Made by a program: the position numbers and the translations under genes
Notes under the pieces: generated by a model
What the model saw: the letters and a program-made list of their open reading frames with translations, nothing else
The model's database searches: none
Told to the model about the DNA's origin: nothing
Shown: one piece after another, positions 84 through 40,416 of the stretch
Numbering within the stretch: the stretch's first letter is position 1
Layout of the letters: each line of letters begins with the position of its first letter
Assembly: GCA_937918935.1 (NCBI GenBank)
Contig: CAKZSI010000032.1
Location: forward strand, 1 to 64,000
Source: an uncultured Chloroflexales bacterium
Lineage (GTDB): Bacteria > Chloroflexota > Chloroflexia > Chloroflexales > Chloroflexaceae
DNA length: 64,000 bases
Direction of reading: 5' to 3'

Positions 84-1661
84 TCAACACGTCTGGTTGA
101 TCATCAGGCGGCAGCGATCAAAGAGCAGCGTCCACAGCTTATCGAACACCTGCCGGGGAACCTCTACGAACTGATAGTAGAGCATATCGTCCCAGACCAG
201 TTCGCGCCGGATCACGCCGGGCCGAATGAACGTGAACTGGGCGATGAGGCCGATGTTCCACGCTACCAGGGCCGCGGCGCCGATGAGAATGGGCCATCTG
301 CCCACCCGTGGTTGCAGCCAGGCCAGCAGCGCCGCCAGGCCGAGCACAACGATCGGTGTACACTCGATCAGGCGGCGGAAGCCAAAGGCGCCGCGCAGGT
401 GCCAGGTGGTGCCAAAGGCGCCGTTGATGTAGGTTTGCGCCAGGAACCCCGCCAGCAGCAACCCGGCCAGCAGCGCGTCCCGTCGCCCCAGCCAGGCCAG
501 GCCCAGTACCCCCAGGGCCAGCACCGGGGCCCACACAAAGGCGCCCCGCCCCGGGTCGATCAGCGTATTGAGAAAGTTCGGACTGCTCCAGATGAACTTG
601 CCCGCCACTGTCGGCGAGGGGCCGGGCCTCCCGTTGAGGATCTGGTATGCGAGCAATTGCGGTGTCAGCGTCAATCCCAGCGTCAGAACAAACGCCGCAT
701 GGCGCCCGAAAAGCCCTGGCCCCATCCGCCAGCGTTCAGCCACCACCAACGCTGCGCCGTCATTCCTCCGCTGCGAGGAGGTTGGGAGCATTGAACCCCC
801 TCCGAAAGAAAAAGCCCCTGCGACCAGTAATGCTCCGTAGCTCCAGAGGGCTTCCAGGGCCGGGATGATCAGCAACAGCCCCAGTTGTTCGCGGGTCATG
901 ACCATCAACCCGCCGATCAGCCCCAGCGCCAGCCACGTGGGCAGGCCTCGCTCCAGCGGCCGCCGCCAGTGGCGCATCCAGACCGTCAGGAACAATGCGA
1001 AGAGGAAGAACCCCGGCGCATGCGACCAGGGCATCAGAATGATGCTGTAAAACACCAGCGAGGAGGCCAGAAAGACGGTAAGCGTTGCCACAGTGGCGGC
1101 AAAGTCGCCACTGAACCGTCGCGCCAGGCGGTAGGTCAGCAGCAAGCCGATCAGGCTGTACAGCGCCGACATCATGCATGTCGCGACGATGTACGGTCGA
1201 GCATAGCCATCGCGTGGCAAATTCGCCCCAACGGCATTGGCAACCACCACCCCGAGGTCGGCCAGCACGAACCCCGGCGCCCAGAGGATCGCCGCGCCGA
1301 CGGGCGCGACATTGCGCAGCAGGCCGGTCCTGGGATTGGGGTTCATAGCATCTTCACGCAGCAGCGCGTTGGTCACCGCCCGATCGCCGAAACTCTCGGC
1401 CTGTGCGGCGAAGTGTTCGTACTCATTACGGAAATCCAGATCGCGATCAAAATAGACCGACCGCAGATAGGCGTAATACTGCACCTCGTCGCTCAGGGCC
1501 ACGCGCGGTACGCTGAAGGGCAGCAACAGCACAAATACCAGGGCGATGAGCCACGGGCCGATGTCGCTGGCGGCCACCCAGGCCCGCAAACGAACCCGGA
1601 GCGGTGTGCGCCCCAGGCCGGTGATAGGAGCGCCGTGGTCAACAGGTGTACCCATCTTCAC
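84..1661 (-). CDS. GT-C type polytopic membrane glycosyltransferase
   Basis: Predicted integral membrane protein of 525 residues with about ten hydrophobic spans, probably transferring a sugar from a lipid carrier to an acceptor on the outer face of the membrane. After the first span (about residues 35-52) comes an acidic SDEVQYY motif at 57-63, followed by FDRDLDF, the position where GT-C enzymes carry catalytic or metal-binding acidic residues in their first outer loop. The GTG start at 1661 is favoured because AAAGG lies 7 nt upstream; an ATG two codons later is possible. It is the last gene of the minus-strand surface block, 175 bp after the beta-propeller gene, and that gap holds two palindromic repeats. 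Acceptor and sugar cannot be inferred. Confidence 0.75.
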   Translation of the reverse strand: MKMGTPVDHGAPITGLGRTPLRVRLRAWVAASDIGPWLIALVFVLLLPFSVPRVALSDEVQYYAYLRSVYFDRDLDFRNEYEHFAAQAESFGDRAVTNALLREDAMNPNPRTGLLRNVAPVGAAILWAPGFVLADLGVVVANAVGANLPRDGYARPYIVATCMMSALYSLIGLLLTYRLARRFSGDFAATVATLTVFLASSLVFYSIILMPWSHAPGFFLFALFLTVWMRHWRRPLERGLPTWLALGLIGGLMVMTREQLGLLLIIPALEALWSYGALLVAGAFSFGGGSMLPTSSQRRNDGAALVVAERWRMGPGLFGRHAAFVLTLGLTLTPQLLAYQILNGRPGPSPTVAGKFIWSSPNFLNTLIDPGRGAFVWAPVLALGVLGLAWLGRRDALLAGLLLAGFLAQTYINGAFGTTWHLRGAFGFRRLIECTPIVVLGLAALLAWLQPRVGRWPILIGAAALVAWNIGLIAQFTFIRPGVIRRELVWDDMLYYQFVEVPRQVFDKLWTLLFDRCRLMINQTC

Positions 1662-1710: not shown

Positions 1711-1780
1711 GCATCCCTCCAGATGAAAACAGAGATGTTCTAAAGAATGCGAAGCTCTCCCAGACCCTTCCCTCAGACAG

Positions 1781-1811
1781 GAGCGTGGGGAACCCCGGGT
1801 TCCCCACGCTC
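1781..1811. repeat. Dispersed palindromic repeat, copy 2 (extended perfect palindrome)
   Basis: Centred on GGGGAACCCCGGGTTCCCC with flanking GAGCGT and ACGCTC that also pair, giving about 15 bp per arm. It lies just downstream of the beta-propeller gene stop at 1837 (minus strand). It could end or protect that transcript, although there is no U-run. Confidence 0.75.
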
Positions 1812-1836
1812 CCAGAGGAGACATGCGGATGTTCTT

Positions 1837-4107
1837 TCAGCGTCGCGTAACCGGCAGGTGCGTTCGGGGGAAGGTTACGTTGGTCAGATTGATCGTGGCT
1901 GCCAGATAGCCATCGGTAGGATTGCCGGCGCCATCGAGGAAGCGGGCATAGACATAATACGCGCCGGGCGTTCGTTGATCGGGCCGCAGCCCGGTTGCCA
2001 GGCTCCAGTTGGCGATGGTAAAGCTCGTGCCCTCGCCGGGCGCCTGCACCGGGATCCAGACCAGACTCGGATCGGTGGCGGGATTGCTCACCGGCTGGCG
2101 GCTATTGGCCAGCCACACCCCCCAGAAACCCCGGCCTGGATAGGCATTGTCGGTAACGGTGACGTCGCTGAAGCTCAGGGTGGTTAGAATGGTAGCCTGA
2201 GGGTTCGAGGTGACGCGCAGCGAGTCAGGAGTGGACCTGGCCAGCACCGGTTTTACGGGATCATAGATCAGCGTTTGCTGATAATCGCGCTGGTTGCCTG
2301 CCTGGTCGCTCACGCGCACGAGCAGGTTATTTTCGCCGGGGGCGATGCGTCCGGGGTAGCCAAGCACATTGGCGAAGAAGTCGTTCTGGGTAGGGATGGC
2401 ACGGGCGAAACTGGTGATGCTGCGACCAGCGGCCACATTCTGGAGATTGCTGCAATCATTGATCCCGCGAACGTCCAGGTAGAAGCCTGGCTCGCGGGTA
2501 TAATCAGGATGACCATCACTGGCCCCGTTGACGCCGCTGTCAGCCGGCAGCAGGGGATCGTGCAGGTCATCGCCGGCGGGGGTGAAGCGTGGCGCGCGCA
2601 GGGCGATGTGCGGATTGCTGATCGCTACCGCCGCCTGGATCCCCGGATCGATGATAACGTCATCGTGTTGCGGAGGGCCGGTATCGCCATCGGCCTCGCG
2701 TACCTGGGTGAACAACCTGACCGGCGTGCAATCCTGACCAAAGAGGTTTGGGGGCAAGGGGATGGTGATGGGATTGCTGAAGGGCTGCCATCCGTTCGAG
2801 TCGTTGGCGTTATCGGTCGGTTCCGCGTTCCAGCGCCAGCGGATCTGCGTGGGCTGGCCTCGAATATTCAGGAAACTCACTCTGACAGTGCTCCTGCCCG
2901 GTACGTACTGCGCCCCATCATCAATGTCGGGGTCTGCGCCCACGTTGGCCCCTGGTGCGGCGGTGAAAAGCAGGTAGCGCAGCACCGAGGGTCCGCCCCC
3001 AAACAACTCGCCGGCAACATGGGCATAGGCGGCGTCACTCACGTTTGCCGACATCCGCGAGTTAAAGATGACCCCTGCGTCGTTCGGGGCGGCGATAGGG
3101 TTGGTGAAGGCGTTGCTGCCCCGCGGGCGCACGGCGTAGTATACGCGCTGGCCGATATCCACCACGGCGTTCCACTGGAGGTGCAGGTTGCCGTTCGGAT
3201 CGGTAGAAATATTCGCCGTTCCGAACGTCTTGGCGGGGCCGGTGATCCGCGAGACAGTCCAGGTATTGCCGTCGCTCGAACTCGATATAAAGATGCCAGA
3301 GCCTTGACCGCCTTCAGCGATGCCCCGGTATGCCACATAGATGCGGCCATCAAGATCGTAGGTCACCGTCGGATCGGCGTAGCCCTCGTCAAACCCCGAG
3401 ACGCGGGTAAGCGCAAACGTGCTCCCGTTCCACGTACCGGCCCGAATGACCAGGCGATCATTCTCGCCGACAGTCACGGCGATGGCCATTGCCCCGTTTG
3501 GTCCGGCCGCCAGCGCCGGGAAATTGACGGCGGCATCGTTGCCGATATTCACCCGCGGCGACCAGTTCTGACCGTCATTGTTCGAGCGCACGACATAGGC
3601 CGGCGTGTCTGGTTCACGCCAGGCAACGTAGGCAAAATTGTCACTGGAGACCTCAACCACCGCATTGACGGGGAAGGCCCCACCGCCGCCGGCAAATACG
3701 GTGCGCTGCGGACCCCAGTCGCCGTTCAGCGGCTTGCGCCGGTAGAATATCGAGCGGCGCTCCTGGTTGATCCAGACATAGTGGGTGGCGCCGTCTGGGC
3801 CGATGGCCACGCTGGTGGTCGAGAAGTCAGCCTGACCGGGGGCCTCGCCGAGCCGCGTGGGGGTGGGAAAGTCAGTTGTGCGGTCCTGCTTTTGCCAGAC
3901 GAAGGCATCGGCACGATTGGCATTCGCCGACAGGAACACCTCACTTCGCGCGGCGGCCACATCGGGGAACTTGATCTCGCGCACATTGGGGACCGTCGTC
4001 TGGCCAATCAGGCGTGGGCCGTCGTTGCCCTGCGCTATGCCGGGCGCCGCGGGCAGGAGCAGGGCCAGCAACGTCAGGGCGCTGAGGATCATCATCAGGC
4101 GGCGCAT
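1837..4107 (-). CDS. Secreted BNR/Asp-box beta-propeller protein (paralogue 1)
   Basis: Exported 756-residue protein. A signal peptide (MRRLMMILSALTLLALLLPAAPGIAQ) is followed by a sialidase-like propeller region at about residues 40-370. Its repeats include SNNDGQNW and SSSSDGNTW, which fit the Asp-box pattern SxDxGxxW. The C-terminal half looks like Ig-like or fibronectin-like beta domains and contains the segment WQPFSNP, also present in the paralogue at 5120-7384. No sialidase catalytic arginine triad or aspartate could be assigned, so I call it a binding or surface protein, not an enzyme. The ATG has AGAGGA upstream. The lectin-like gene ends 21 bp upstream, so the pair is probably cotranscribed. 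The last residues, HLPVTRR, are discussed in the findings. Confidence 0.8.
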   Translation of the reverse strand: MRRLMMILSALTLLALLLPAAPGIAQGNDGPRLIGQTTVPNVREIKFPDVAAARSEVFLSANANRADAFVWQKQDRTTDFPTPTRLGEAPGQADFSTTSVAIGPDGATHYVWINQERRSIFYRRKPLNGDWGPQRTVFAGGGGAFPVNAVVEVSSDNFAYVAWREPDTPAYVVRSNNDGQNWSPRVNIGNDAAVNFPALAAGPNGAMAIAVTVGENDRLVIRAGTWNGSTFALTRVSGFDEGYADPTVTYDLDGRIYVAYRGIAEGGQGSGIFISSSSDGNTWTVSRITGPAKTFGTANISTDPNGNLHLQWNAVVDIGQRVYYAVRPRGSNAFTNPIAAPNDAGVIFNSRMSANVSDAAYAHVAGELFGGGPSVLRYLLFTAAPGANVGADPDIDDGAQYVPGRSTVRVSFLNIRGQPTQIRWRWNAEPTDNANDSNGWQPFSNPITIPLPPNLFGQDCTPVRLFTQVREADGDTGPPQHDDVIIDPGIQAAVAISNPHIALRAPRFTPAGDDLHDPLLPADSGVNGASDGHPDYTREPGFYLDVRGINDCSNLQNVAAGRSITSFARAIPTQNDFFANVLGYPGRIAPGENNLLVRVSDQAGNQRDYQQTLIYDPVKPVLARSTPDSLRVTSNPQATILTTLSFSDVTVTDNAYPGRGFWGVWLANSRQPVSNPATDPSLVWIPVQAPGEGTSFTIANWSLATGLRPDQRTPGAYYVYARFLDGAGNPTDGYLAATINLTNVTFPRTHLPVTRR

Positions 4108-4128: not shown

Positions 4129-4914
4129 CTAGCGGCTCGTGACGCTGAAGTCGTCAAAGAGAATGCCGCCCATTGCCCGGGTATACACCCCCGCCCGACC
4201 TGCCGGCAGAGGCTCCGGATCAAACCCCTCGACCACAACCGTCCCGTCCAGGGTAACGGTAATTGTGTCGCCAGTGACGTTCAGCGCCAGCACATGCCAC
4301 ATCCGCTCATCGAACCCTGGTTCCCTGATCTCCACCAGCGTGGTGGCGACGCCCTGGTATACCCGTTCGAGCACCTGCCTGGGAGTAGCCGGGTAAGTGT
4401 TCTTCAAGATGCGGTAGCGGTAGTAGCTCGCTGTCAGCGGATCATCGCCGCTGTAGCGGGCCACCAGCCCCGCGGTGCCATTGTACAGGTCGTAGAAACT
4501 TACCTGCACAGTGTAATCAGTCCACCCCGGGGCGCCGGTCACCGCCGCCGTCTCCAGGGTGGACGGGTTCCCCGCGGAGGCGGTGAAGCGTTGTTCCAGC
4601 CGCCCACCGGCAATCGCCCAGATAGGGCGCTGCTCGGCCAGCCGGATCGGCTCCAGGGGCACGAACGTCCAGGCGCTGGCGGTGGCGGGATCTTCAAAGG
4701 CGTCTGTGGCGAGGATGGCAGCCGTCTGGGGCATCGCCGCCGCTGTCGGGTTGGGGCCAATCGTCGGCGTGGGAGGGAAGGGCGGATATTCGAGCATAGG
4801 TTCCTGTTCCTGCGCAACCCCGCGCGGCGCCTGCCAGAGGGCCACGGCCACGAGCGCCGCAACCAGCAGGACCACCGCCCCGCTGGCGATGGCAGGTCTG
4901 ATGTAACCTTTCAT
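4129..4914 (-). CDS. Exported concanavalin/LamG-like protein (paralogue 1)
   Basis: 261 residues from the chosen ATG. The N-terminal hydrophobic segment (AIASGAVVLLVAALVAVALW) ends in PRGVAQ, which could be a signal peptide cleavage site or a membrane anchor. A Pro/Thr-rich stretch (PPFPPTPTIGPNPT) follows, then a beta-sandwich domain of about 190 residues with features of LamG/DUF1080-type carbohydrate-binding folds: WTDYTVQVSFYD, AGLVARYSG, and the C-terminal GILFDDFSV. A longer frame begins 16 codons upstream, but the paralogue at 8259 starts at the equivalent MK(G/R)Y, and AGAGGGG precedes this ATG. Probably binds glycan or partners with the propeller protein encoded next. Confidence 0.75.
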   Translation of the reverse strand: MKGYIRPAIASGAVVLLVAALVAVALWQAPRGVAQEQEPMLEYPPFPPTPTIGPNPTAAAMPQTAAILATDAFEDPATASAWTFVPLEPIRLAEQRPIWAIAGGRLEQRFTASAGNPSTLETAAVTGAPGWTDYTVQVSFYDLYNGTAGLVARYSGDDPLTASYYRYRILKNTYPATPRQVLERVYQGVATTLVEIREPGFDERMWHVLALNVTGDTITVTLDGTVVVEGFDPEPLPAGRAGVYTRAMGGILFDDFSVTSR

Positions 4915-4971
4915 AGACACCCCTCTTATGGACGCGGCCCCATTGCCGTGCGGGTCGCGCAAGGTGATCGT

Positions 4972-5000
4972 ATTGTACTACTGAACACAGGTCTTGCGAA
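4972..5000 (-). promoter_or_regulatory. Candidate promoter for the 4129-4914 gene
   Basis: On the minus strand, TTCGCA (4995-5000) and TACAAT (4972-4977) are spaced 17 nt apart and lie about 58 nt upstream of the ATG. The -10 is good and the -35 matches 4 of 6. If real, the second lectin/propeller module can be transcribed independently of the first. Confidence 0.4.
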
Positions 5001-5056
5001 TAGGACGAAGGTCTTGAAGCGCATATGCACCCGTCATTCGCTTACGTAACAATGGA

Positions 5057-5093
5057 GGAGGGTCTGGGAGAGCAAAGCCCTCCCAGACCCTCC
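5057..5093. terminator. Strong stem-loop between the two lectin/propeller modules
   Basis: Left arm GGAGGGTCTGGGAG and right arm CTCCCAGACCCTCC pair over 14 bp with a short loop. It lies about 27 bp past the stop codon of the 5120-7384 gene on the minus strand, so it can act as a hairpin terminator or 3' end stabiliser. No U-run follows, so intrinsic termination is uncertain. Confidence 0.5.
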
Positions 5094-5119
5094 TATCAGG
5101 GAACCATCGCCGAAACTGC

Positions 5120-7384
5120 TTATCGGTACACCCTCGGCATCCACAGTTGGGGTGGCGTCAGGTTACTGGAGGGCACGCGGATCTCGACGTATTCGTCAGT
5201 AGCATTTCCCGCCGCGTCGAGGAAGCGGACATAGAGGTAGTACTCCTCACCCGCTACCAGTTGCGCCCGGCTGAGGCCGCTCGCAAGGCTCCAGTTCCTG
5301 ATGTCGAAGGTGCCGTTTTGCACACCGCTTGCCGGGACGATGAACCACCTCAGGTTCTGATCTCGTAACGGATCGGTTACCTGATCAGGAGAGTTGGCCA
5401 CCCACACGCCCCAGATCTCGTCGGGGAAGAAGTCGTCATCCACAGGGATGTTGTTGAAGCGCAGGGTCTGCAGCAGGTCGAACTGCGGATGGGGGGTTGC
5501 GCTGGCCTGCGAATCCACGCTTGCGCTCTGCTGGTTCAAGCGCGGCTTCTGTTTATCGTAATTGACGGTCAGGGTAAAGGTCTCGACGTTACCCGCGCCA
5601 TCGCGCACCTCAACCACCATGGGCCAGGGCCGTGATTGTTCGCCGCTGAAGCCAGGGATGGGCACATACCCGGAAAAGCCGTTCGGCCCGAGCTGGTACG
5701 TGGTGGTCAGATTGTTCTCGGCATTTCCGACACGGGCCGTGGTCAGACCGTTACAGTCGGTGTCGGGAATGATGTTCAGATAGGTGAACGGATAGCGTGT
5801 GTGGTCGGCTGCGCCGCCCGGCGCCTCGCCATCGGTGTTCACCGGGGCATTGCCGCTGCTTGTGGCCTTGGCGACCGGGTTCTCCAGGTATACCCAGACT
5901 TCCACGACGCCATCGATTTGAATGCTATCGGAGCGCGCTTCGGGTTCGATATCGCCGGTTTGCGTATTGCGTAGTTGCGTGAACAAGGTTGATGGCAAAC
6001 AGGACGTGTCGTTGTAGAGTGCCGGGGGCACGGGGACCCGCAGCGGGTTGCTGAAGGGCTGCCAGCCGTTGGAGTCGCTCGCGGCGTCGGTTGGTGGCGC
6101 ATTCCAGCGCCAGCGGATCTGGTTGGGCGTACCCTGGAGGTTGGGGAACGAGACCAGCACGGCCCGGTCAAGGCTCCGTCCGGTTCTCGGCGCGTCGCCC
6201 TCGATCACCGGCTGGCCGCCGAAGATCGCGGCGCTGAAGAGCGAATAGCGAGTGCGCAACCCGCTCCCGGTGAATTCCTCGCTGACCATATGGTTGTACA
6301 CCGCACCCGCGGCGATGCTGCCGTAGGCCCGCGGGTTAAAGAGTGCTCCCTGGGCGGCGGAGGCCAGTGGCCCGCGGAAGCTGGTCGTGGGAGGCTTGAA
6401 AGCGTAAAAGGGCTGGATGGCGCCCGACGGCTGCCCGATCCACGAAAGATGCAGGTTATTCTGCTCATCGAGGTTGATGTTGGCTGTACCAATCACCCGG
6501 CCAGAGGTAAGCCGGCTGCGCGGCCAGCTTCCATCAGGCTGACGCTCGGAGTAGAAGACACCCGAGTTTGGCCCGCCCTCCGCGATACCGCGCCATGCCA
6601 CATATACCCGGCCCTGGCGGTCGAAACTGATGCTAGAGTCAGCCCATCCATCGCCGCCGGAAGTCACCTGGCTAATGTCAAAGCGCGATGTTGCTGCGTT
6701 CCACAACCCGGCAAAGATGTGCAGACGGTCGCCGGCGCCGGCAGTAAAAGTCAATCCGACCTGTCCATTTGGCCCGGCGGTCAGCCCCAGGGGCGAGGCG
6801 TAGGCCTCGAAACTGGTGACATTGGTCAGCCCGGTCCAGCTTGCGCCGCCGTCAGTAGAGGTGCGGAAGCGTACCGGCGTGCCGGGATCGCGCCACGCGA
6901 CGAAGATCTGATTGTTGCTCGATACCGCCACCTCGACTGAAACCGGGAAGGGCGATCCCCGGTTGACGATACGGGTCGGACCCCATTCGCCTTGCGGAGA
7001 GCGCTGGCGCACGAAGATCGTTCGTGACGCCTGGTTGATCCAGGCCGCCCACACCGAGCCATCGGGCCCCAGAGTGATCGAGGTGGGGGAGTAATCCGGT
7101 TGACCCTCGGCGGGACCCAGGTCCACCGGGTTAGGGAAACTGATCGCGGTCGCCGCCTTGCTCCAGGCGAAGGCGGTGCGGCGAAAGGCGTTTCCAGAGG
7201 CATGCACCTGATTGTTGCCTGCCACAACGTGGGGGAACTTTACATCATTGGAGTTCGGCAGGATGAACTCCGTGATCAATCGCAGGCTGCCTTCTTGCGC
7301 CCTGGCAGTGGGCGCCGGCGACGCCGCAAGCATGGCGGCCAGCATCGCAACGGTACACAGCGCAACAAGCGACGTTCGCAGCAT
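5120..7384 (-). CDS. Secreted BNR/Asp-box beta-propeller protein (paralogue 2)
   Basis: 754 residues, similar in length and order to the protein at 1837-4107: signal peptide (SLVALCTVAMLAAMLAA ending PTARAQ), propeller repeats in the first half including STDGGASW (Asp-box) and VYVAWRGIAEGG, then beta domains with RWRWNAPPTD and WQPFSNP. It ends LWMPRVYR. The ATG at 7384 has GGAGGTAG upstream. It follows the lectin-like gene at 7477-8259 by 92 bp. It arose with its neighbour by tandem duplication of a two-gene unit. Catalytic residues of true sialidases were not identified, so an adhesin or glycan-binding role is inferred. Confidence 0.8.
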   Translation of the reverse strand: MLRTSLVALCTVAMLAAMLAASPAPTARAQEGSLRLITEFILPNSNDVKFPHVVAGNNQVHASGNAFRRTAFAWSKAATAISFPNPVDLGPAEGQPDYSPTSITLGPDGSVWAAWINQASRTIFVRQRSPQGEWGPTRIVNRGSPFPVSVEVAVSSNNQIFVAWRDPGTPVRFRTSTDGGASWTGLTNVTSFEAYASPLGLTAGPNGQVGLTFTAGAGDRLHIFAGLWNAATSRFDISQVTSGGDGWADSSISFDRQGRVYVAWRGIAEGGPNSGVFYSERQPDGSWPRSRLTSGRVIGTANINLDEQNNLHLSWIGQPSGAIQPFYAFKPPTTSFRGPLASAAQGALFNPRAYGSIAAGAVYNHMVSEEFTGSGLRTRYSLFSAAIFGGQPVIEGDAPRTGRSLDRAVLVSFPNLQGTPNQIRWRWNAPPTDAASDSNGWQPFSNPLRVPVPPALYNDTSCLPSTLFTQLRNTQTGDIEPEARSDSIQIDGVVEVWVYLENPVAKATSSGNAPVNTDGEAPGGAADHTRYPFTYLNIIPDTDCNGLTTARVGNAENNLTTTYQLGPNGFSGYVPIPGFSGEQSRPWPMVVEVRDGAGNVETFTLTVNYDKQKPRLNQQSASVDSQASATPHPQFDLLQTLRFNNIPVDDDFFPDEIWGVWVANSPDQVTDPLRDQNLRWFIVPASGVQNGTFDIRNWSLASGLSRAQLVAGEEYYLYVRFLDAAGNATDEYVEIRVPSSNLTPPQLWMPRVYR

Positions 7385-7476
7385 GGCTCGTTCTACCTCC
7401 AGGCGGGGATGGGCGAAGCGTTCGTGGCAGGCGCCCCCGCATAGCGTTCACCAGTAATTCTGATCCTTCATCAGGG

Positions 7477-8259
7477 CTACGGCTGGACGACGGCAAAGTC
7501 ATCGAAGACGATCCCGCCGATCGCGCGGGTGTAAATGCCGGCGCGTCCGGCCCTCAGCGGCGCGGGGTCCTCCGCCTGGGCCACGATCTGACCATCAAGG
7601 GTAGCGGTAATGGTGTTGCCGTTCACGCTCAGGGCGAGGGTGTGCCAGGCGCGCTCGATGAAGCCAGGCTCGTCAATCGCCGTCAGGGTGGTCGCAACGC
7701 CGCCCTCGACCTTCTCCAGCACACGCTTCGGCGTGTCCTCGAAGGTGCTCTTCAGCATACGAAAGCGATAGTAACTGGCAATGGTCGGATCGGCCCCACT
7801 GTAGCGGGCCACCAGCCCCGCAGTGCCGTTGTAGAAGTCGTAGAAGCTTACCCTGACGGTGTAGTCGGTCCACTCAGCCGAACCAGTGAGGGCGACTGTT
7901 TCCTGAATCGACGGATTGCCGGCGGCTGCGGTGGCGTCTTGCGCCAACCGCCCATCGCGAACGGTCCAGACCGAACGGCTCTCGGGCAACACGAACTCGA
8001 GATCAACAATCGTCCAGTCGCTAAGGCTGGCGGCATCGTCGAAGGCGGCTGCGGTGAGCGGCGCCATGCCCTGCAGGAGGGCCGGCGTGGTGGGGTTTGG
8101 ACCGACCGTGGCGGTAGGCGGATAGTCAGGGTATTGCAGGATCGGCTGTTGATCTTGCGCCACGCCTCGGGGGGCCTGCCACAGGGCCACGGCGATGGCC
8201 CCAATGGCCAGCAGCCCGACTACCAGGCTTACGATTGTAGAAGTGCGATATCGCTTCAT
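7477..8259 (-). CDS. Exported concanavalin/LamG-like protein (paralogue 2)
   Basis: 260 residues. The N-terminal hydrophobic segment (TIVSLVVGLLAIGAIAVALW) is followed by QAPRGVAQ, identical to the paralogue at 4129-4914, then a Pro-rich spacer (PPTATVGPNPT) and a beta-sandwich domain with WTDYTVRVSFYDFYNG, AGLVARYSG and the terminal IVFDDFAV. The ATG at 8259 is preceded by AAGGAGAT, a strong ribosome binding site. First gene of the duplicated module and likely first gene of the operon given the promoter at 8348-8376. Known members of this fold bind or hydrolyse glycans; the ligand here is unknown. Confidence 0.78.
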   Translation of the reverse strand: MKRYRTSTIVSLVVGLLAIGAIAVALWQAPRGVAQDQQPILQYPDYPPTATVGPNPTTPALLQGMAPLTAAAFDDAASLSDWTIVDLEFVLPESRSVWTVRDGRLAQDATAAAGNPSIQETVALTGSAEWTDYTVRVSFYDFYNGTAGLVARYSGADPTIASYYRFRMLKSTFEDTPKRVLEKVEGGVATTLTAIDEPGFIERAWHTLALSVNGNTITATLDGQIVAQAEDPAPLRAGRAGIYTRAIGGIVFDDFAVVQP

Positions 8260-8347: not shown

Positions 8348-8376
8348 ATCCTAACTCAGTTCGCCACCGCTGTCAA
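8348..8376 (-). promoter_or_regulatory. Strong sigma70-type promoter for the lectin/propeller operon
   Basis: On the minus strand, TTGACA (8371-8376) and TAGGAT (8348-8353) are separated by exactly 17 nt. The predicted start of transcription is near 8341, leaving about 80 nt of leader before the ATG at 8259. The -35 lies inside the last codons of the upstream glycosyltransferase gene, so this operon can be read independently. Confidence 0.6.
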
Positions 8377-9639
8377 TGTTTCCGGGCGGTACGGTTGGAG
8401 GTCGAGGTGTGGGCCCAGAAACGGCTGGTACAGGCGCAACAGATCGACCGCGATGCGCCCCGAGCTGAAGGCCGGGGCCATGTCCACTGCGCAACGGCTG
8501 CAGGTGGCCCAGGCCTCCTGGTCGGTAAGCAATTCGTCGAGGGCCTCGGCGATTGACGCGCCGGAGCGGGGATCGACCACCCGGCCAGCGCCGTGTGCCG
8601 CCACATAGTCGCTGACCCCGGTAGTGCGGGTGACCACCGCGGGCGTGCCCACCGCCGCGGCTTCGACTACCACGCGACTGAAAGACTCGGCCACTGAAGG
8701 CACAACCGCGACATCAGCCGCAGCGAGGTAGGTGATGGCTTCGGTGTGGGCAATGCCGCCGGTGAAATGGACATCGGCAGCGGCCCCCACGGCTTCAGCC
8801 CGCGCTCGCAGAAAGGCGCCGTAGTCGCCGAAGCGCGGTGTCGAGCGGTTGGGACCGACGATGAGCACCTGCGGCGCGATTCCGCGCCGCCGCAGGTACG
8901 GCAGCGCATCTAGCAGGTAGGCGATGCCTTTGAAAGGATGCAGACGGTTCAGACTGACAACGATGGGCCGACTGAGGTCGAGATGGTGGCGTTCTGCGAC
9001 AGCCAGGCGACTGCGCCGGCGGAAGGCCGCGAGATCGCCAGGAGGGGGGAAACTGTCGGCGGTGATGTTGTAGGGTATTGCAACGACCTTTTGAGGGTTG
9101 GCGCCCAGGCGGATGGCCAGTTCACGGATCTGGGGCGAGTCGGCGCGCAGCACGGCGGCACGCCGGAAGATCCAGGGCAAGACGGCCCGCACGGCGGGGA
9201 AGCGTCCGTAGCCGTAGTCAAATTCCGGCTCGGCCATAATATCGGCGCCAGGCAGGGTGACCGCCAGGGGTGGTGAGCGGCGGGGCGGGACCAGCGCTGC
9301 GATCAGGCCGAGGGGAAAGGCAGTTTCGATATGGGCCAGAGCGTAGCGCCGCTCGCGAATCAGGCGCCGGTAGTGCCATGCCGCGCCAGCGAGATAGGGG
9401 TATGGAAGGGCTGTGGCCACGGCGCGATTGGCCAGCTTCAGCGGCGCGCTGGCGCTCACCGGGAGGCGATGCACCGTCACTCCCTCTTCGATGCTCGTGA
9501 CCCGGCGCGTCAGACGGGCGTCGAGGCTCAGTACCTCGGTCTCGACGCCGTGCCGCCGCCATTCGGCGATCACTTCGGTGTGAATGCGATTGCCCATTGC
9601 GGCGCTGTCGTAGCGCGGGATGCAGTAGAGAACGTTCAT
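8356..9639 (-). CDS. GT4-family glycosyltransferase (GT-B fold)
   Basis: 427 residues, cytosolic. The N-terminal Rossmann half has the usual layout (MNVLYCIPRYDS, then GNRIHTE), and the C-terminal half has the nucleotide-sugar-binding region: PIVVSLNRLHPFKGI, the hydrophobic strand VLIVGPNRSTP, VHFTGGI and the E-x7-E type segment ESFSRVVVEA followed by GTPAVVTRTTG. Typical of retaining GT4 enzymes in polysaccharide or glycolipid assembly. The ATG has GAGGAA upstream. It stands between the GT-C genes and the lectin/propeller operon, which supports a role in surface glycan synthesis. Donor and acceptor unknown. Confidence 0.85.
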   Translation of the reverse strand: MNVLYCIPRYDSAAMGNRIHTEVIAEWRRHGVETEVLSLDARLTRRVTSIEEGVTVHRLPVSASAPLKLANRAVATALPYPYLAGAAWHYRRLIRERRYALAHIETAFPLGLIAALVPPRRSPPLAVTLPGADIMAEPEFDYGYGRFPAVRAVLPWIFRRAAVLRADSPQIRELAIRLGANPQKVVAIPYNITADSFPPPGDLAAFRRRSRLAVAERHHLDLSRPIVVSLNRLHPFKGIAYLLDALPYLRRRGIAPQVLIVGPNRSTPRFGDYGAFLRARAEAVGAAADVHFTGGIAHTEAITYLAAADVAVVPSVAESFSRVVVEAAAVGTPAVVTRTTGVSDYVAAHGAGRVVDPRSGASIAEALDELLTDQEAWATCSRCAVDMAPAFSSGRIAVDLLRLYQPFLGPHLDLQPYRPETLTAVAN

Positions 9640-9780: not shown

Positions 9781-12087
9781 TCATTCTTCCCGGCGTTCCC
9801 ACAGTTCCAGTGCCCGACCCGAGCGGCTCACCACGTGGATGAGGCGGTACGATGGCTCCAGAGCCGCCGGGCCGTCAAAATAGTCATCCCAGATGCGCGG
9901 GATGTAGGTCGGGCGGCGCTGGTGGAGAATGTAGCCCGAATCGCGCTTTTCGTGGCCAGGCACACCCTGGCCCATGTCCGTGATGTCCAGCCGACCAATG
10001 TGCCGGTCGGTTAGCCCGTACATGTCAATCGCCGTGCGCTGCCCGTAAAAGGCTATCGCGCCCGCTCCGGCGACGGTGATGCTCGCATCAGGTGCGCTAT
10101 GGTCGTACAGCCACCAGCCGATCTCGCGCCAGATCCACACGCTCTCGTCCAGCCCGCGGATGGTGGTATCCAGGGGTGCTGTGCGCGCGAGGGCGGCCAG
10201 GCTTGCGACCACCAGTCCGAGGGCTAACAGGGGCCGCGCCAGACGCGCGGGCGCGGAGAGCGCCTGAATAAGAGTGGCCACCCCGTCGGCGATAAGGAGC
10301 GCGAACCAGGGAACCAGGGGCACGAAGAAACGTTCTCCGCGAAAGTGATCGCCGCCGACGCTGATAATGTAGGCGCTGTAGATCAGGGTCACCAGCAGGG
10401 CGTAGCCGCGCCACGAGGCCAGGGCCGCGCGCCAGGAGCGCAGCCACGGCGCGGCAATCACCAGCAGCAGCGGGCCGCCGATGGTCAGAGCGAAGGCTCC
10501 GGCGTAGGCCAGACCGCGCTCGATCTGCTTCAGGCCGCCGCCGGTTTTGGCGTAGAAGGTGTTGGGCAGCAGGTCGCCGTAGTAGCTCAGCCTCCACAGG
10601 AAGTACGGCCCGAACAGGGCCAGGAAGGGCGCCCCCAGGGCCAGCAACGGCGGTAGCGTTGCACGCAACCGTTCCGCCGGGCCGCCCGGTTGCCGCATCA
10701 CTGCCGTGAACCCGGCATGCAGGGCTGTCAGGGCGAACAACAGCAGGCCCTCGGGGCGCGTAAGCGCGGCAAGCCCGAAGGCCAGCCCGGCGACTATCAG
10801 CGCGCGCGTCCCCAGGCGCTCGCGGGCCAGGTATGCTCCACCGCCAGCGAGCGCGAGCAGGGTGAACAGCCCCGTCTCCAGCCCGGCGCCGCGGGCAGTG
10901 TAGAGCAGCAGGCTCTGGCTTGTGCCGGTGAGCAGGGCCGCCACCAGCCCCCAGGGCGGACCGATCAGCGGCTCGGCCACCCGGTAGGTTCCCACGACGA
11001 TCAGCAGCCCGAGGAGCACGCCGCTGGCGTGGCTCCAGAGTACCAGGTCACCCCCCAGGCGCAGCACCCCCGCTGCCATAACCGTCCACAGAAAATTGGT
11101 GTAGCCCTCGACCCGCTCGCCAACGTTGTAGACCAGTCCGTGGCCCAGGGCCAGGTTCTGGGCGTAGCGGAAGGAGATGAAGGCATCGTCGGAGAGCCAG
11201 GAAGGCCAGATCAGGCCCGCCAGGGTGACAGGCGTCATGAGAGCGGCCAGACCGAGGCGCGCGGGCAGCACTCGCGCGGCCAGGGCAGCCAGAAGAACGC
11301 CGGTGAGCATCAGAGCGGCCAGCCAGGCCGGAGGTAGGGCCGCGGGCCGGTTGAGGATGGCCAGAGCCGCCAACCCGAGGCCGGCCACGCCGGCAAGCGC
11401 CAGCGCGTTGCCCCGCGGCAGCCGCGCGACGCGCAGCGCGCCCCACAACGCCGCCAGTCCCAGGCCGGCGAGCGCCGCCCCCGCCAGGTCGGGCCGGGTG
11501 AGGGGGCGCAGCCGCACATCGGTAAGCATCACTCCCAGGGGACGCGGGTTGCCCGCGGCGACGAAGGTGGGCGTCTGGAGGGCGAACCACAGCTCGGCGC
11601 CCTCGCCGCCAGGGCCGATCAGCAGCCGGTAGCGGCGAAAGCGCGACTCCGGGGTGGTGCGAGCCGCGGGTTGCCCGCCCACGAGCAACGTCAGCGGCTG
11701 CGGCCCCGCCGGGTTGTCGGCGCGTAGACGCACCTCGGCAAGGTAGGCGGGTGCGGCGAAGAAGGCGCCCCGCACCTGGATCAGGGCGTTGCCGCTCGTC
11801 CAGCGGTAGAGCGAACCATCGGGGTGGCGTTCGGGGCCGTAGATGCCGTCGAGGAAGACCGGCCCGGGCGTGATTTCGCTGCCGGTCACCGGCGCGAGGG
11901 CGGGGGCACGCGAGCGGCCGAGCGACACCAGAGCGGCGACAAGCAGCAGGAGCGCCAGGAAGCCCGGTGTGGTCCAGTTGACGGAGAGACCCGGCGTGGA
12001 TGCCCGCTGTCGGGCGGACACGGGCGCGGAGGCGGCGGCCAGGCGCCGCCGCTCGGCTTCCAGACCATGGCGGGACTCGGCGTTCAC
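9781..12087 (-). CDS. GT-C glycosyltransferase with an outer beta domain, AftB-like core
   Basis: 768 residues. A first membrane span (about 42-57) is followed by an extracytoplasmic beta-rich domain at about 75-197 ([12 protein letters not shown] ... [10 protein letters not shown]), then a multi-span GT-C core. The catalytic loop has [23 protein letters not shown] with Asp-Asp at 300-301 and [11 protein letters not shown], the signature of arabinofuranosyltransferase-like GT-C proteins that use polyprenyl-phosphate sugars. It begins with GTG overlapping the methyltransferase stop by 4 nt (GTGA), so translation is probably coupled. The beta domain resembles the one in the protein at 28579-30999. 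The sugar is unknown, and arabinose should not be assumed. Confidence 0.8.
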
Positions 12088-12941
12088 GGTTTGTGCAGGG
12101 TGAACATCACGTAGAGCGGATCGCTGCGGTCGAAACGCTCCTCAAGGGGATGGACGACCAGGGCCAGCAGGAGATCCTTGAGCACGAAGCGTCGCCAGTA
12201 GCGTGTGAGCCGCGTCTCGTGGTAGCGCCCGTTGAGGATGGAGCGCCCGAAGCCCTCCAGCTGGCTCATCCGCAGACCGGCGGGCCGGGCATAGGTGCGC
12301 TCGAGATCCTCCAGCGTATAGAAGCGGAAGAACGAACCGGCCTTACCCGCCTGCACAAAGGCGTTCCGCTCCACCGGTACAAACGGGCGAATGCCCTGGA
12401 AGAAACTGGTGCGCTCGCTGCTGGTGAAGGGCAGGGTCAGGGCGGCGATGCCGCCGGGAGCCAGGATGCGCCCGATTTCGCGGCCGACCGCCGCATCGTC
12501 GGGGATGTGCTCAAGCGAGGAGATGGCGGCGATGCGCGCGAGGCTGCCCTCGCGTAAGGGCATCGCAGTGGCGCTGGCAACCAGGGGGAAGAACTGGCCG
12601 TCGCCGGGGCGGGCGGTGGCGCGCCGCTTGCGGAGTTGCCAGCGCACCCGTTCGGGGTCCAGTTCCAGCACGATCACGTTGACGCCCTCTCTGGCGAGCA
12701 TATGCGGGTACGACGAAGTGCCTGAGCCAATGTCGAGCACCAGGTCGCCGCGACGCAGGTCGAGGGCGCGGGTTGCCCAGGGGTACTCGATGATGCGCCA
12801 GAGGCTGAAGTCGTTGACCGTTTCGCGGAGAATGCGCCAGCCGTTCAGCGCCACCTCGTAGGCAACCGTGCGCCACTTGCCGAGGCGCACCGGGCGCCCC
12901 TCGCGCTCACGCCGGGTAGATTGGATGGTGGTGGTTGCCAT
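12084..12941 (-). CDS. Class I SAM-dependent methyltransferase
   Basis: 285 residues, cytosolic. The SAM-binding motif I is [16 protein letters not shown], followed by the acidic end of strand 2 ([11 protein letters not shown]) and the post-motif segment [10 protein letters not shown], as in methyltransferase domain 11 proteins. The C-terminal third ([32 protein letters not shown]) is basic and partly hydrophobic and may touch membrane or lipid-linked substrate. It overlaps the next GT-C gene by 4 nt. No clear ribosome binding site was seen before the ATG. Likely methylates a sugar or lipid intermediate of the surface glycan; the substrate is inferred from context only. Confidence 0.8.
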
Positions 12942-28510: not shown

Positions 28511-28549
28511 GTAGAGGTATGGGGAAACCAGGTTTCCCCATACCTCTAC
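28511..28549. repeat. Dispersed palindromic repeat, longest perfect copy
   Basis: Core GGGGAAACCAGGTTTCCCC extended on both sides by GTAGAGGTAT and ATACCTCTAC, giving 19 bp perfect arms around one central base. It lies 29 bp before the start codon at 28579, so it should form a hairpin in the 5' leader of that mRNA. Confidence 0.85.
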
Positions 28550-28578
28550 ACCCATCCGCACCTGCCACGAGGAGACCT

Positions 28579-30999
28579 ATGACCAGTTCCGCTCCGGGCG
28601 AGGCGCTGTCGCGGGAGCGTGGCGCCGGTTCGGCTTTGAGCATACCGCGCATCGGCGATCTGCGGCCCTATCTGTGGCTGGCGCTGCTGACCGCGCTGGC
28701 GCTGACGGTGGCCTACGCTGCCCGTCCGGTGGTGCGCATTGACCTTGGCGGCGATCACGATGCGGTGTTCCTGCGCGGCTTCCATGGGCGCGAGATTGAC
28801 GCCGTCGGCGCAGCCGAGACGGCAGCCTGGCCGCCCGACGCGCCCGTGTTGAGGGTGCCGGGTCGCCGCGAGGGGGTCTGGATCGCCACGTTGCGGGCTG
28901 CGCCGGGCCAGGCGCCAGGCATGCTGCGCCAGGCGGCGGTGGCGGTGAATGGCGAGCGCGTGGACATGCCCCGTCGCGGCCCGGATTTCATCGTCGTCAA
29001 GGTGCCGCCGGAACTGGGCGCCGCCGAGACGCTGAGCTTCAGCCTGGTGGGGCCGCTGGTGGGCGACCCCGACCCGCCGTCCGGTCTCGTGGGGGAGGTG
29101 GAACTGGCCCCCGCGCGGACCTACCGCTGGTCCAGCGGGGAGGCCAGTATCACGCTGCCCAATCTGGGCCGGGGGGCCTGGACGCTGGATCTGGCGGTGG
29201 TGACGGCGCACCCCGACGGGCAGCCCGTGAACGCGGAGTTGTTCGTCAGCGACACACTCCTGGCGCGCTTGCCCGATAGCCCTGCGCCGCGCCGGGTGCA
29301 CCTGCTGGCCCCGGCGAGCCTGGTCCGCGACGGTACGCTGGAAATCACCCTGCGCTCGAATACCTATACCGACCCGCGCCCGCTGGGGGTGCTGGTGTCG
29401 CAGGTCACGGTGGCCCCGGCGGGGAACGCCGGCCTTGCCACGGCCGTGCCGCCCCTGGGGGGGCTGGGGTTGGCCCTGGTGACGGTGCTGGGGGCCTTTG
29501 CGGCCCTGCATCTGATTGTCGGCGGGAGACCCGAAGGTCGGCGGCGCGCGCCGCCGTACCTCTGGGCGGCCCTGGGGGTGGGCCTGGCCGCGCTGCTGGG
29601 GGCCTGGGCGCTGATGGCCCATCGCTTCCCGAGTAGCTTCATGCTGCCACGGCTGGCGTGGCTGGCGCTGTGGAGTGTGGCGCTCGCTGCGGCCCTGCGC
29701 CCGCTGACGGGCTGGCTCTTCCGCGCGGCGGGCTTCCCGCTCGACGCGCCCGCCGATGCCGCGGCCATCTCCGGGCGGCGCTTCCTCAGTCTGCTGTTGC
29801 TGTTCGTGATGGTCAGCTACTGGCTCAAAGCCATCGGTGCGCTGCACCCCTTCTTCGTCGCCATTGACGTCAACTGGCACATGACCCGCGCCCAGTGGAT
29901 CCTCGAAGGGCGCCTGCCGCTGCTCTACGGCACCAGCAGCCCGCTCAACGAGACGACTATGCCCACTGCCGAGTGGGGCGAGAATCGCCCGGTCATCCCC
30001 TACTCGCCGTGGTTCCACATGTTCGCCACGGTCTTTGCCTTCACCCCGATGTCAATGGACATGGCGGCGAACATGTTCAGCATCCTGATAGACAGCACGC
30101 GCATCATCCTGATCGCCCTGATCGCCCTGAAAGCCGGGCTGACCCGCCGCGGCGCGCTGATTGCCGGGGCGACCTATGCCGTGCTGCCCGTGGCCTTCCT
30201 GCTGCACTCCTGGGGCAACGTCCCCACCACCTTCGGCCTGTGGCTGACCCTGGTGTGCAATGCGGTCATCTTTGTCTGGTGGGAGCGGCTGGGCGAATGG
30301 CGGGTGATGGTGACGCTCTCGGTGCTGCTGCTGCTCACCTTTCTAATGTACACGGTCACCGGGGTGTTCATGGGCGTGTTCCTGGTGATCCTGACCTTGC
30401 TGGTGTGGTTGAACGGGTTGCGGGGTGGGTCCTGGGCGGCGCAGCGCGCCCGGCTCAGGCCCCTGTGGATCGCGGCGGGGGCGGCGATGGTCCTGGCGGT
30501 GCTGATCTACTATGGGCAGTACATCCCGCTGATTATCGCCCAGACCGTGCCGTACATGAAGACGGTCTTTACCCAGGGGCCGGAGAGCGTGGGCGTGGTA
30601 CGGCCGCCCTTCGGGCAGTACATGTGGAGCTACGTGCCCCACCTCGATTACCGCATCTGGCCGGGCGACTACCTTTACTACGGCATCGCCGTCCCTATGC
30701 TGTTCACCATTCCGGGGTTCTTTGCCCTGCGCCGCGAGCCGCTGCCCTGGCTGATCTTCGCCGCCTGGCTGACTGTGGCGACCCTGTTCATGTTCGCGGG
30801 CTACCGCATCTCGATGGTGGACAAGCAAGTGTTCTACATGCTCCCGGTGATGTGCGTCTGCTGGGCGATCTATGCCGACCGGATCTGGGAGCGCTGGTCC
30901 TGGGGGCGCCGGGTGGTGATCGCCGTGCTGCTCTACACCCTCTACGCCGCGGTGGACCAGTGGGTGCTGCGGATCGCCACGTCGCCGGTGGTGGGGTGA
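28579..30999 (+). CDS. GT-C-like membrane glycosyltransferase with outer beta domain
   Basis: 806 residues from the ATG at 28579, preceded by CGAGGAGA; a longer frame starts inside the palindromic repeat and is rejected. After a first span (about 27-45) comes a beta-rich extracytoplasmic region to about residue 290 (FLRGFHGREID, TYRWSSGEASITLPNLGRG, RPLGVLVSQVTV), then about twelve spans. The loop FFVAIDVNWHMTRAQWILEGRLPLLYGTSSPLNE carries the Asp and His/Arg expected of a GT-C active-site loop. The beta region resembles that in the 9781-12087 protein. First gene of the plus-strand glycan block. Probably transfers a lipid-linked sugar. Confidence 0.75.
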   Translation: MTSSAPGEALSRERGAGSALSIPRIGDLRPYLWLALLTALALTVAYAARPVVRIDLGGDHDAVFLRGFHGREIDAVGAAETAAWPPDAPVLRVPGRREGVWIATLRAAPGQAPGMLRQAAVAVNGERVDMPRRGPDFIVVKVPPELGAAETLSFSLVGPLVGDPDPPSGLVGEVELAPARTYRWSSGEASITLPNLGRGAWTLDLAVVTAHPDGQPVNAELFVSDTLLARLPDSPAPRRVHLLAPASLVRDGTLEITLRSNTYTDPRPLGVLVSQVTVAPAGNAGLATAVPPLGGLGLALVTVLGAFAALHLIVGGRPEGRRRAPPYLWAALGVGLAALLGAWALMAHRFPSSFMLPRLAWLALWSVALAAALRPLTGWLFRAAGFPLDAPADAAAISGRRFLSLLLLFVMVSYWLKAIGALHPFFVAIDVNWHMTRAQWILEGRLPLLYGTSSPLNETTMPTAEWGENRPVIPYSPWFHMFATVFAFTPMSMDMAANMFSILIDSTRIILIALIALKAGLTRRGALIAGATYAVLPVAFLLHSWGNVPTTFGLWLTLVCNAVIFVWWERLGEWRVMVTLSVLLLLTFLMYTVTGVFMGVFLVILTLLVWLNGLRGGSWAAQRARLRPLWIAAGAAMVLAVLIYYGQYIPLIIAQTVPYMKTVFTQGPESVGVVRPPFGQYMWSYVPHLDYRIWPGDYLYYGIAVPMLFTIPGFFALRREPLPWLIFAAWLTVATLFMFAGYRISMVDKQVFYMLPVMCVCWAIYADRIWERWSWGRRVVIAVLLYTLYAAVDQWVLRIATSPVVG

Positions 31000-31035
31000 T
31001 TTCGGATTGGATGAGGGCGTGGGAGGAAGGGGCGT

Positions 31036-31054
31036 GGGGAAACCAGGTTTCCCC
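31036..31054. repeat. Dispersed palindromic repeat
   Basis: Perfect GGGGAAACCAGGTTTCCCC in the 88 bp between two membrane-protein genes, 34 bp before the ATG at 31088. Confidence 0.8.
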
Positions 31055-31087
31055 CTCCTCCTTGCAATCGTGTTGAGGTAGCTGCGG

Positions 31088-32644
31088 ATGCTACGCAACC
31101 AGACTCTTCCTGTCGCAGCGCGCGTCTCGGTCCTTCCGGCGTGGCTCGGCCCGCGCCGGGCGCTGGCAGGGTTGCTGCTGGTCTTCAGCGCGCTGATCAT
31201 CGGCGCGGGGTCCTACAAGTACGCCTACTGGGGCCATGGCTTCGACATGGTGGACTTTCACATGCCGATCTGGGGCACGCTTCACGGGCGTTTTCTGCTG
31301 GTGTCGCGCTACAATTTTACCGATACGTTCATGGGGCTGGATGTGGCCCTGGGATTTCTGCCTGCCATCCCGTTTTACGCCCTGGTCCCCTCGGCCTACA
31401 CCCTGGTAGTGGTGCAGACGCTGCTGCTGGCCTCGGCGGCCATCCCGGTCTACCTGATCGCCCGTGACCGGCTGGGCCATTCCTGGGCCGGGGTGGGCCT
31501 TGCGGCGCTCTACCTGCTCTACCCTACGACGCAGTTCATGGCCATGGCCGCGCCGTTCCAGCCGCGGATCCCCGGGCTGGTGGCCTTTTTCTGGGCCTTC
31601 TGGTTCCTGGAGCGGCGGCGGCTCTGGCCCTACCTGCTGCTGCTGGGCCTGGCCATGCTCTCGCGCACCGACGCGGCGCTGGTGGCGGCGGCCTTCGGGA
31701 TCTACGCCGCCTTACGGCGCCTGCCCCGGGCCTACAGCGCCGTGCCGGTGATCGTGAGCCTGGTCTACTTCTACGTGGCAATCACCTACATCACGCCGCG
31801 CTTCTACAGCCTGGAGTTCCAGCCGGTACGGGTCGAGGCCCCCTTTGATCTGAACCGCGATTACAACGAGATGTGGCCCTGCGGGGTCAGCCCGCAGGCC
31901 TGTTACTACCTGCACCTGGGTGGCAGCCTGCCGGCGATCGTGAAGAACATCCTGACCCACCCGGTCGAGGTCTTCCTGTTCATGGTCCAGCCGCCGAAGC
32001 TGGCTTACCTGGCGCTGATGCTGGCCGGGCTGCTTTTCGTGCCGCTGTTCGCCCCGCGCGAGTTGCTACTGGCCGCGCCGATCCTGGCGATCAACCTGCT
32101 CTCCAACCGGGTCTACCAGTACGTGATCACCGAGCAGTACCAGATCCTGGCCATTCCGGGGATGGTAATCGCGGCGATGTACGGGGCGGCGTGGCTGTGG
32201 GAGCGCGCCCGCGGGCGCCTGGCCAATCCATCGCGGGCGGGGGCGGTCGCTATGGCGGCCATGGTCGCGCTGGTGGCGCTGGTGAACCTGCCGCTGAAGA
32301 ACCCGGTCATTTCGGCCCTGCGCAACCCGGAGCGCCCGGAGCGGGTGGCGCTGATGGAGCGGATGAAGGCGCAGATCCCTCCTGATGCGGTGGTGGCGGC
32401 GACGTCGTTCCTGGCGCCACATCTGCTGCCGCGCGAGGCGATCTACTTCATCCCTGGCGGCAAGATGCACCACCAGGTGGACGAGGCCGAGTATGCCTTC
32501 ATTGATCTGCGGGCCAGCGGCCTGCGCGCCGAGGCCGCGCGGGGCAACGACATCGTCGCGCGCCTGCGCGCCGACCCGGCGTGGACGGTGGTGCATGAGG
32601 AGGATGATCTGCTGTTGTTGAGGAAGAAGCGAGGGAGATTTTAG
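31088..32644 (+). CDS. DUF2079-family multi-pass membrane protein
   Basis: 518 residues with about ten spans. The first outer loop has YWGHGFDMVDFHMPIWGTLHGRFL, where the G-x-D-x-x-x-x-x-Q/P-x-x-W pattern and following RYNFTDTF correspond to DUF2079, a family of GT-C-like predicted transferases. The ATG at 31088 has GAGGTAG upstream. The terminal 100 residues are soluble and end in a basic KKRGRF. Likely acts on a lipid-linked or surface glycan like its neighbours; no reaction is established for this family. Confidence 0.8.
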   Translation: MLRNQTLPVAARVSVLPAWLGPRRALAGLLLVFSALIIGAGSYKYAYWGHGFDMVDFHMPIWGTLHGRFLLVSRYNFTDTFMGLDVALGFLPAIPFYALVPSAYTLVVVQTLLLASAAIPVYLIARDRLGHSWAGVGLAALYLLYPTTQFMAMAAPFQPRIPGLVAFFWAFWFLERRRLWPYLLLLGLAMLSRTDAALVAAAFGIYAALRRLPRAYSAVPVIVSLVYFYVAITYITPRFYSLEFQPVRVEAPFDLNRDYNEMWPCGVSPQACYYLHLGGSLPAIVKNILTHPVEVFLFMVQPPKLAYLALMLAGLLFVPLFAPRELLLAAPILAINLLSNRVYQYVITEQYQILAIPGMVIAAMYGAAWLWERARGRLANPSRAGAVAMAAMVALVALVNLPLKNPVISALRNPERPERVALMERMKAQIPPDAVVAATSFLAPHLLPREAIYFIPGGKMHHQVDEAEYAFIDLRASGLRAEAARGNDIVARLRADPAWTVVHEEDDLLLLRKKRGRF

Positions 32645-32830
32645 ATTTTGGATTTTGGATTTTTGGTTGGTGATTGGGTGTGGTGGGTTTGGAGGGGTGG
32701 ATGGTGGCGTGGCGCCGGATGCGACCATCGTTCCGACGACCCACCCGCGTGGTGCAAATGGCGGAAATGAGGATCCCACACCATGTCTCAACCCCCAATC
32801 CAAAATCCAAAATCTCAAATCCAAAATCCC
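32641..32830. repeat. Inverted pair of ATTTTGGATT-type repeats
   Basis: GATTTTGGATTTTGG lies at 32644-32658, and the inverted form (AATCCAAAATCCAAAATC) lies at about 32797-32814 with one more unit to 32830. The right-hand copy lies inside the next gene and encodes its residues PIQNPKSQIQNP. Confidence 0.65.
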
Positions 32831-35249: not shown

Positions 35250-35252
35250 GCC

Positions 35253-40414: not shown

Positions 40415-40416
40415 CT

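Follow-up and report, generated by a model that had tools for sequence, protein, structure and literature searches.

The genes for a probably anchored lectin-like protein (L) and a propeller protein with a Sec-type signal (P) form a unit of long standing in the surface-glycan locus of one bacterial order, the Chloroflexales. From the folds of the two proteins and the setting of their genes we infer that the pair binds glycan. Our best explanation, a tentative one, is that L and P make up the side of this locus that faces outward, with an anchored lectin and a diversified propeller partner that would hold or organize the glycan made by the locus itself. Searches of the literature, among them one on Chloroflexus, LamG and BNR repeat, returned no description of such a gene pair, and the pair is called undescribed here on the basis of those searches.

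A duplicated gene pair in a glycan-synthesis locus

The window (the whole stretch of DNA analysed, 64,000 nucleotides of a contig from an uncultured member of the Chloroflexaceae) contains eight minus-strand genes running in one direction, which encode a methyltransferase, a GT-C-like membrane protein, a GT4-type glycosyltransferase, two successive L-P pairs (A and B) and a further membrane protein, M. These genes and the RNA elements between them are as follows.

12084..12941, minus strand: SAM methyltransferase (Pfam Methyltransf_11, 44.9 bits)
9781..12087, minus strand: large GT-C-like membrane protein of family GC (weak match to an NCBIfam arabinofuranosyltransferase family, with 30.4 bits where the cut-off is 1050)
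8356..9639, minus strand: GT4-type glycosyltransferase, immediately 5' of L_A (Pfam Glycos_transf_1, 107.8 bits)
7477..8259, minus strand: L_A, 260 aa; N-terminal hydrophobic anchor or signal, Pro/Thr linker, jelly-roll lectin-like domain at about residues 66-260
5120..7384, minus strand: P_A, 754 aa; signal peptide, seven-bladed propeller at about 34-387, Ig-like arms at about 400-740, C-terminal tail of [LVMI]P-x-[VIL]-x-R type
about 5050..5095, minus strand: perfect RNA hairpin of 18 bp between P_A and L_B (z -5.9; 0 of 200 shuffles equally stable)
4129..4914, minus strand: L_B, 261 aa; paralogue of L_A (62%)
1837..4107, minus strand: P_B, 756 aa; paralogue of P_A (39%)
about 1770..1815, minus strand: perfect RNA hairpin 3' of P_B, containing a motif repeated in the genome (z -2.7; 4 of 200 shuffles equally stable)
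84..1661, minus strand: M, a GT-C-like membrane protein of 525 aa, immediately 3' of the last P

L_A and L_B share 62% identity over residues 1-258 (E 3e-99), and P_A and P_B share 39% over 744 columns (E 5e-149). The tandem duplication of a two-gene unit claimed in a preliminary description of this DNA is real, with paralogy gene by gene, a head-to-tail arrangement and all four open reading frames at the coordinates it gave. The landmarks that it named are also present, QAPRGVAQ and WTDYTV(Q/R)VSFYD being common to both L proteins and WQPFSNP to both P proteins. P_B falls outside the span of 4129-8259 to which it assigned the duplication. That description also called the unit a secretion module; nothing encoded here secretes, and both L and P carry ordinary Sec-type N-termini.

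Separate expression of the two pairs had been argued from two promoters. Consensus matches do exist at 8376-8348 and 5000-4972, but a scan of 13 kb gave 3 matches against 1.9 (sd 1.5) in shuffled sequence, and they do not count as evidence because their number does not exceed that in the shuffles. The two hairpins would suit separate 3' ends for the two L-P pairs better than the promoters do. Part of the hairpin 3' of P_B is a GC-rich palindrome that closely resembles GGGGAAACCCGGGGTTCCCC (window 1787-1806) and occurs at 43 sites of the genome on both strands with at most two mismatches (0 for the reversed control). A second stretch of the window, at 28519-46994 on the plus strand, encodes large membrane proteins (three of them of the GC2 family) and a DUF2079 membrane protein, together with two GT4 glycosyltransferases, a methyltransferase and a GDSL lipase. 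Two glycan clusters therefore seem to be present in the window.

Distribution and gene neighbourhood

L is found in 39 of the 41 genomes of the family, including all 28 good ones, and P in 35 of the 41. In the order, the L search gave matches in 63 of 82 genomes, 57 of them with at least 40 bits. We counted 59 of the 82, namely these 57 and two with weaker matches confirmed by their neighbourhood (G020 and G038), leaving out four weak matches that lie inside frames of 581-711 residues. P lies directly 3' of L in 58 of these 59 genomes, and in the remaining one (G013) the contig ends inside L. The 58 comprise 49 taken from hit tables and nine established by direct mapping of the locus (G018, G019, G020, G022, G023, G035, G038, G042 and G059); in G019 and G035 the contig ends within P, of which the start alone is visible. 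In the hit tables, 70 of the 82 L matches of at least 40 bits have P at most 2.6 kb downstream, and P follows 69 of the 72 mapped L segments, the other three being cut by contig ends. No L without P was seen among the 72 mapped segments or the 59 genomes of the order. Loci for direct mapping were picked by L or P hits; gene calling by script overlooked a few genes (P in L049 and L in L076), and the counts were taken from the hit tables and the direct mapping.

Among 158 genomes of the class, L matches occur in 80 at E 1e-3, the strong ones nearly all in Chloroflexales, and among 400 genomes of the phylum they occur in 34 at E 1e-12, all in Chloroflexales. The P profile matched 28 of 30 order genomes outside the family, in a run that left out the 11 genomes G071-G081, and 2 of 18 class genomes, both weakly. 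Weak or missing profile matches are not proof of absence. Three strong L matches outside the order (G087, G088 and G089) have an adjoining P-like gene with low scores (146, 67 and 79/70 bits). L-P-like neighbours with low P scores were seen in L131, L132 and L133, from families f6-f8 outside the order, with lipoboxes in the L proteins of f7 and f8; such neighbours are a possible root of the system.

The usual order of the locus is methyltransferase, GT-C-like protein and GT4, then L-P once or twice, then M. The GT4 gene holds the same place in most Chloroflexaceae loci, family GC and the methyltransferase are conserved neighbours, and the methyltransferase is found in most loci. The genera that carry L, P and M presumably include Chloroflexus, Roseiflexus and Herpetosiphon. 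The preliminary description had placed the pair within a glycan-synthesis locus, which the neighbouring glycosyltransferases, conserved across Chloroflexales, bear out.

Among the 93 mapped P segments, L lies upstream in 72 cases and M at most 5 kb downstream in 59, some of the rest being contig ends. In family f3, P is present in all six genomes and L in none, and P adjoins M in all three loci fetched from this family despite the missing L. A separate group of P paralogues occupies another conserved setting, on contig 25 of the window genome (G000) and in G031 and G021. The window genome has two L genes and three P genes, the third P being on another contig without L beside it. The preliminary description named the frequent occurrence of either gene without the other in relatives as what would speak against its pairing; this was not seen for L, and it was seen for P, in f3 and in the separate paralogue group. 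L goes with P, and P does not depend on L. The third P (G000:C25:97742-99811, L065) has as neighbours, all named by eye, an HMG-CoA-lyase-like gene, a short-chain dehydrogenase and a tricorn-like protease gene; the setting is similar in G031 and partly so in G021.

The lectin-like protein L

The structural model of L, built from seven sequences, has a mean pLDDT of 67.4, with the jelly-roll domain predicted better than this mean, a helix at 5-28 and a disordered linker. In the model the domain adopts a jelly-roll fold, and it matches best to mouse galactocerebrosidase in its lectin domain (3zr5, Z 18.9), a thrombospondin C-terminal domain (Z 18.1) and CBM66 (4azz, Z 17.7). The likeness to CBM66 of Bacillus subtilis levanase and to the galactocerebrosidase lectin domain extends over 156-179 aligned residues (Z 17.6-18.9), with a TM-score of 0.76-0.80 on the CBM66 length; in contrast to these domains, with which identity is about 18%, L stands alone on an N-terminal anchor with no enzyme in the same chain. 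L_A matches Pfam Glyco_hydro_59_C (34.9 bits, cut-off 27) and 3keto-disac_hyd (33.4 bits, cut-off 26.8), while L_B reaches 24.9 bits for Glyco_hydro_59_C, below the cut-off of 27. Against PDB sequences, the best match of the L profile is galactocerebrosidase (E 0.013). A match of this profile to a clostridial neurotoxin binding domain (E 0.99) was at chance level and was discarded. The structural matches support the lectin-like fold proposed earlier for L.

The anchoring of L, which had likewise been proposed, is probable. Of 68 L proteins with at least 200 residues, 13 have a hydrophobic stretch that ends in a lipobox-like motif by the usual definition, and these come from six genera within the order and from two outgroup families. 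By family the counts are 1/47 in f1, 3/6 in f2, 6/11 in f4, 0/1 in f6, 1/1 in f7 and 2/2 in f8. Judged from these motifs, L is probably an anchored protein in all lineages, with a lipid as the anchor in the deep ones and a membrane span in most Chloroflexaceae. In most Chloroflexaceae, cleavage after a conserved alanine, which would release L, may also occur. The invariant G-x-A that precedes Q/E could be taken for a site of signal peptidase I, but A[QE] also occurs C-terminal to the lipobox in most of the lipoprotein forms and can only be linker there, which weakens this reading; in the transmembrane forms it remains a candidate for cleavage.

The propeller protein P

P carries a Sec-type signal and no further membrane anchor. 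Its model, built from nine sequences, has a mean pLDDT of 80.7 and contains about three Ig-like stretches and seven blades, the latter placed at 34-387 by our reading of its strands. Its structural matches include the CylK propeller (Z 32.5), PLL4 (Z 28.3), PLL-type lectins (Z 26-28) and integrin alpha heads (about Z 26.7), and the best Foldseek matches include a Micromonospora sialidase (E 4e-13), PLL lectins with PLL2 at E 6e-11, ulvan lyases, and BT3686 among other glycoside hydrolases. P thus agrees with its earlier description as a propeller and has a sialidase- and PLL-lectin-like fold. It resembles the PLL/PHL lectins of Photorhabdus in its seven blades (about 308 residues, rmsd about 3) and GH33-type sialidases in its propeller fold, but identity to either is about 10-14% and P adds Ig-like arms and a C-terminal tail. 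Stretches such as STDGGASW and SNNDGQNW are Asp-box-like. The P profile gave 0 matches to PDB sequences at E up to 1.

The sialidase, lyase and hydrolase matches would suit P as a glycan-cutting or trimming enzyme of the sialidase, lyase or GH145 propeller type, with L as its anchored binding module, the two being split over two genes and editing or releasing the glycan of the locus. The invariant polar residues of P include K49, R265, D306, H312, H365 and E369, and K49, R265, H365 and E369 of the propeller could equally be catalytic, which speaks against our best explanation. The GH33 active site, however, has three conserved arginines, and among 51 aligned P proteins R265 is the only arginine column conserved at 90% or more within residues 34-386. 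For lack of a conserved triad, membership of P in the sialidase family was rejected. BNR families in Pfam match P below their cut-off only, and no NCBIfam enzyme family reaches its cut-off with P, so we consider an enzymatic P unlikely. Mean conservation is 1.88 on the propeller face that carries K49 and R265 and 2.20 on the other face. Conservation is therefore not higher on the former, and the absence of a conserved face there also counts against our best explanation.

The resemblance of the propeller and Ig-like arms to integrin alpha heads raises a different possibility, namely that the L-P pairs mediate adhesion to surfaces or to partner cells, acting in mat building or gliding contact, and merely share a neighbourhood with glycan genes. 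No integrin alpha-like FG-GAP family is among the Pfam hits of P up to E 1. Named species of the order are filamentous gliders according to passages in three papers (PMC3368417, PMC7332563, PMC11434263), which would suit this role. On the other side, the conserved place of the locus between glycan enzymes in all three main families exceeds what an adhesin needs, and the homogenization of L within genomes, described below, argues for one fixed partner; we regard adhesins as improbable.

The membrane protein M

The 44 homologues of M have 6-10 hydrophobic segments and more than 100 columns conserved at 90% or more, including D60-E61. An acidic pair after the first span is a feature of GT-C/PMT_2 proteins, and M is a multi-span protein with such a pair. 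M is like PMT_2 and other GT-C glycosyltransferases in its many membrane segments, its early D-E pair and the PMT_2 matches of some homologues: two of eight M proteins score above the cut-off of 26.1 (32.3 and 28.5 bits) and one just below it, whereas M of the window has no Pfam hit. The degree of conservation across homologues suggests that M is an enzyme, and GT-C is our best guess at its type.

These PMT_2 matches bear on the idea that L and P are glycoprotein acceptors, onto which M and its relatives would move a lipid-linked glycan in a PMT-like manner, at the Pro/Thr linker of L and on P, giving a surface glycoprotein coat. The linker is disordered in the model and has P50, T51, P56 and T57 at 95-100% in 39 L proteins, and M stays with P where L is absent, both as acceptors would lead one to expect. 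The linker differs in deeper lineages, however, M of the window lacks the Pfam match on which the idea leans, and acceptors would not need lectin-type folds. We hold this role to be rather unlikely.

Age of the doubling and constancy of L

In a carefully built P tree (51 rows; the L tree was a quick version), copies A and B of genera g1, g15, g2 and g5 form two clades (100/100 each), and the doubling is therefore older than these genera. The Chloroflexus-type P copies form a clade of their own. Within the Chloroflexus-type genomes G007, G006, G009 and G008, the two L copies are 95, 100, 98 and 100% identical, whereas the same L is 73-85% identical between Chloroflexus-type species, and the two P copies are 45, 69, 42 and 42% identical. 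In the genome with the 69% P pair, which we take to be C. aggregans, a tract of 1950 bases with 99.95% identity takes in L and, of P, the half with the propeller (98%) without the Ig half (39%). Judged from these identities, the pattern is the mark of gene conversion, which would keep L constant under two different P partners, and it presents a clear natural case of one anchor left unchanged for two partners. In the window's own genus, where the L copies are 61-69% identical, such homogenization is not at work.

Proposed role in the cell envelope

Several lines of evidence lead us to prefer a glycan-holding role for L and P. The adjacency of L to P is unbroken across the order, both proteins have lectin-type folds, lipoboxes in L of f2, f4 and f7/f8 point to an anchor, the L copies are 95-100% identical where the P copies are 42-45% identical in three of the four genomes, and M is conserved beside P even without L in f3. 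Such folds, however, also serve enzymes and protein-protein contacts. Under the preferred explanation, the locus would make a glycan, perhaps O-methylated; this last idea comes from PLL2, a relative of the propeller in fold, which was solved with O-methylated sugars according to structure titles, and from the methyltransferase gene found in most loci. L would stay anchored and hold that glycan, or P, at the membrane, and P would bridge glycan strands or link them to a layer outside. Two P paralogues with one homogenized L could then give two binding specificities on one anchor, and the tandem copy in the window would be an old doubling of this kind whose L copies are no longer homogenized.

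Herpetosiphon reportedly possesses a peptidoglycan-polysaccharide complex, by the title of a work cited in PMC3368417. On the envelope, passages of one study report that no LPS was detected, that the nature of the outer layer is enigmatic and that all three strains studied show an additional external density (PMC7332563), and according to a passage of another the machinery by which C. aggregans glides was still to be identified (PMC11434263). L and P are candidates for parts of this unexplained outer coat. The proteins L, P and M, whose destination is the cell exterior and which occur in most of the order but seldom beyond it, offer direct handles on that coat. A more specific proposal, which we put forward as doubtful, is that L, P and M are an order-specific assembly module of an LPS-free outer coat in filamentous Chloroflexales, in which a lipid- or membrane-anchored lectin and integrin-like propeller lectins would recognize an O-methylated glycan produced by the locus that encodes them and would thereby hold the filament's external layer, or its gliding surface, in place.

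The C-terminal tail of P

Among 90 P segments with the stop in view, [LVMI]P lies two to five residues from the end in 69 and the final residue is R in 64. A strict form of the tail ends 45 of 72 P proteins against 2 of 476 other called genes of the same loci, one of these two being in a frameshifted P (L097). The P-type tail might serve in protein sorting in this order. Samples of 20 x 20 kb gave the pattern in 4 of 270 proteins of G007 (0.34 expected) and in 2 of 276 of G064 (0.29 expected). As judged from these two samples, the tail is at most a minority feature of large extracellular proteins, and a role as general export signal of the order was set aside. One match in each sample resembles the end of a sensor kinase. 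The tail [LVI]P-[LIM]-[VI]-x-R/N, which hardly varies in P (in P at 1837-1860 and 5120-5145; L107, L110, L116 and L152), also ends a few very large extracellular-looking proteins in two other genomes.
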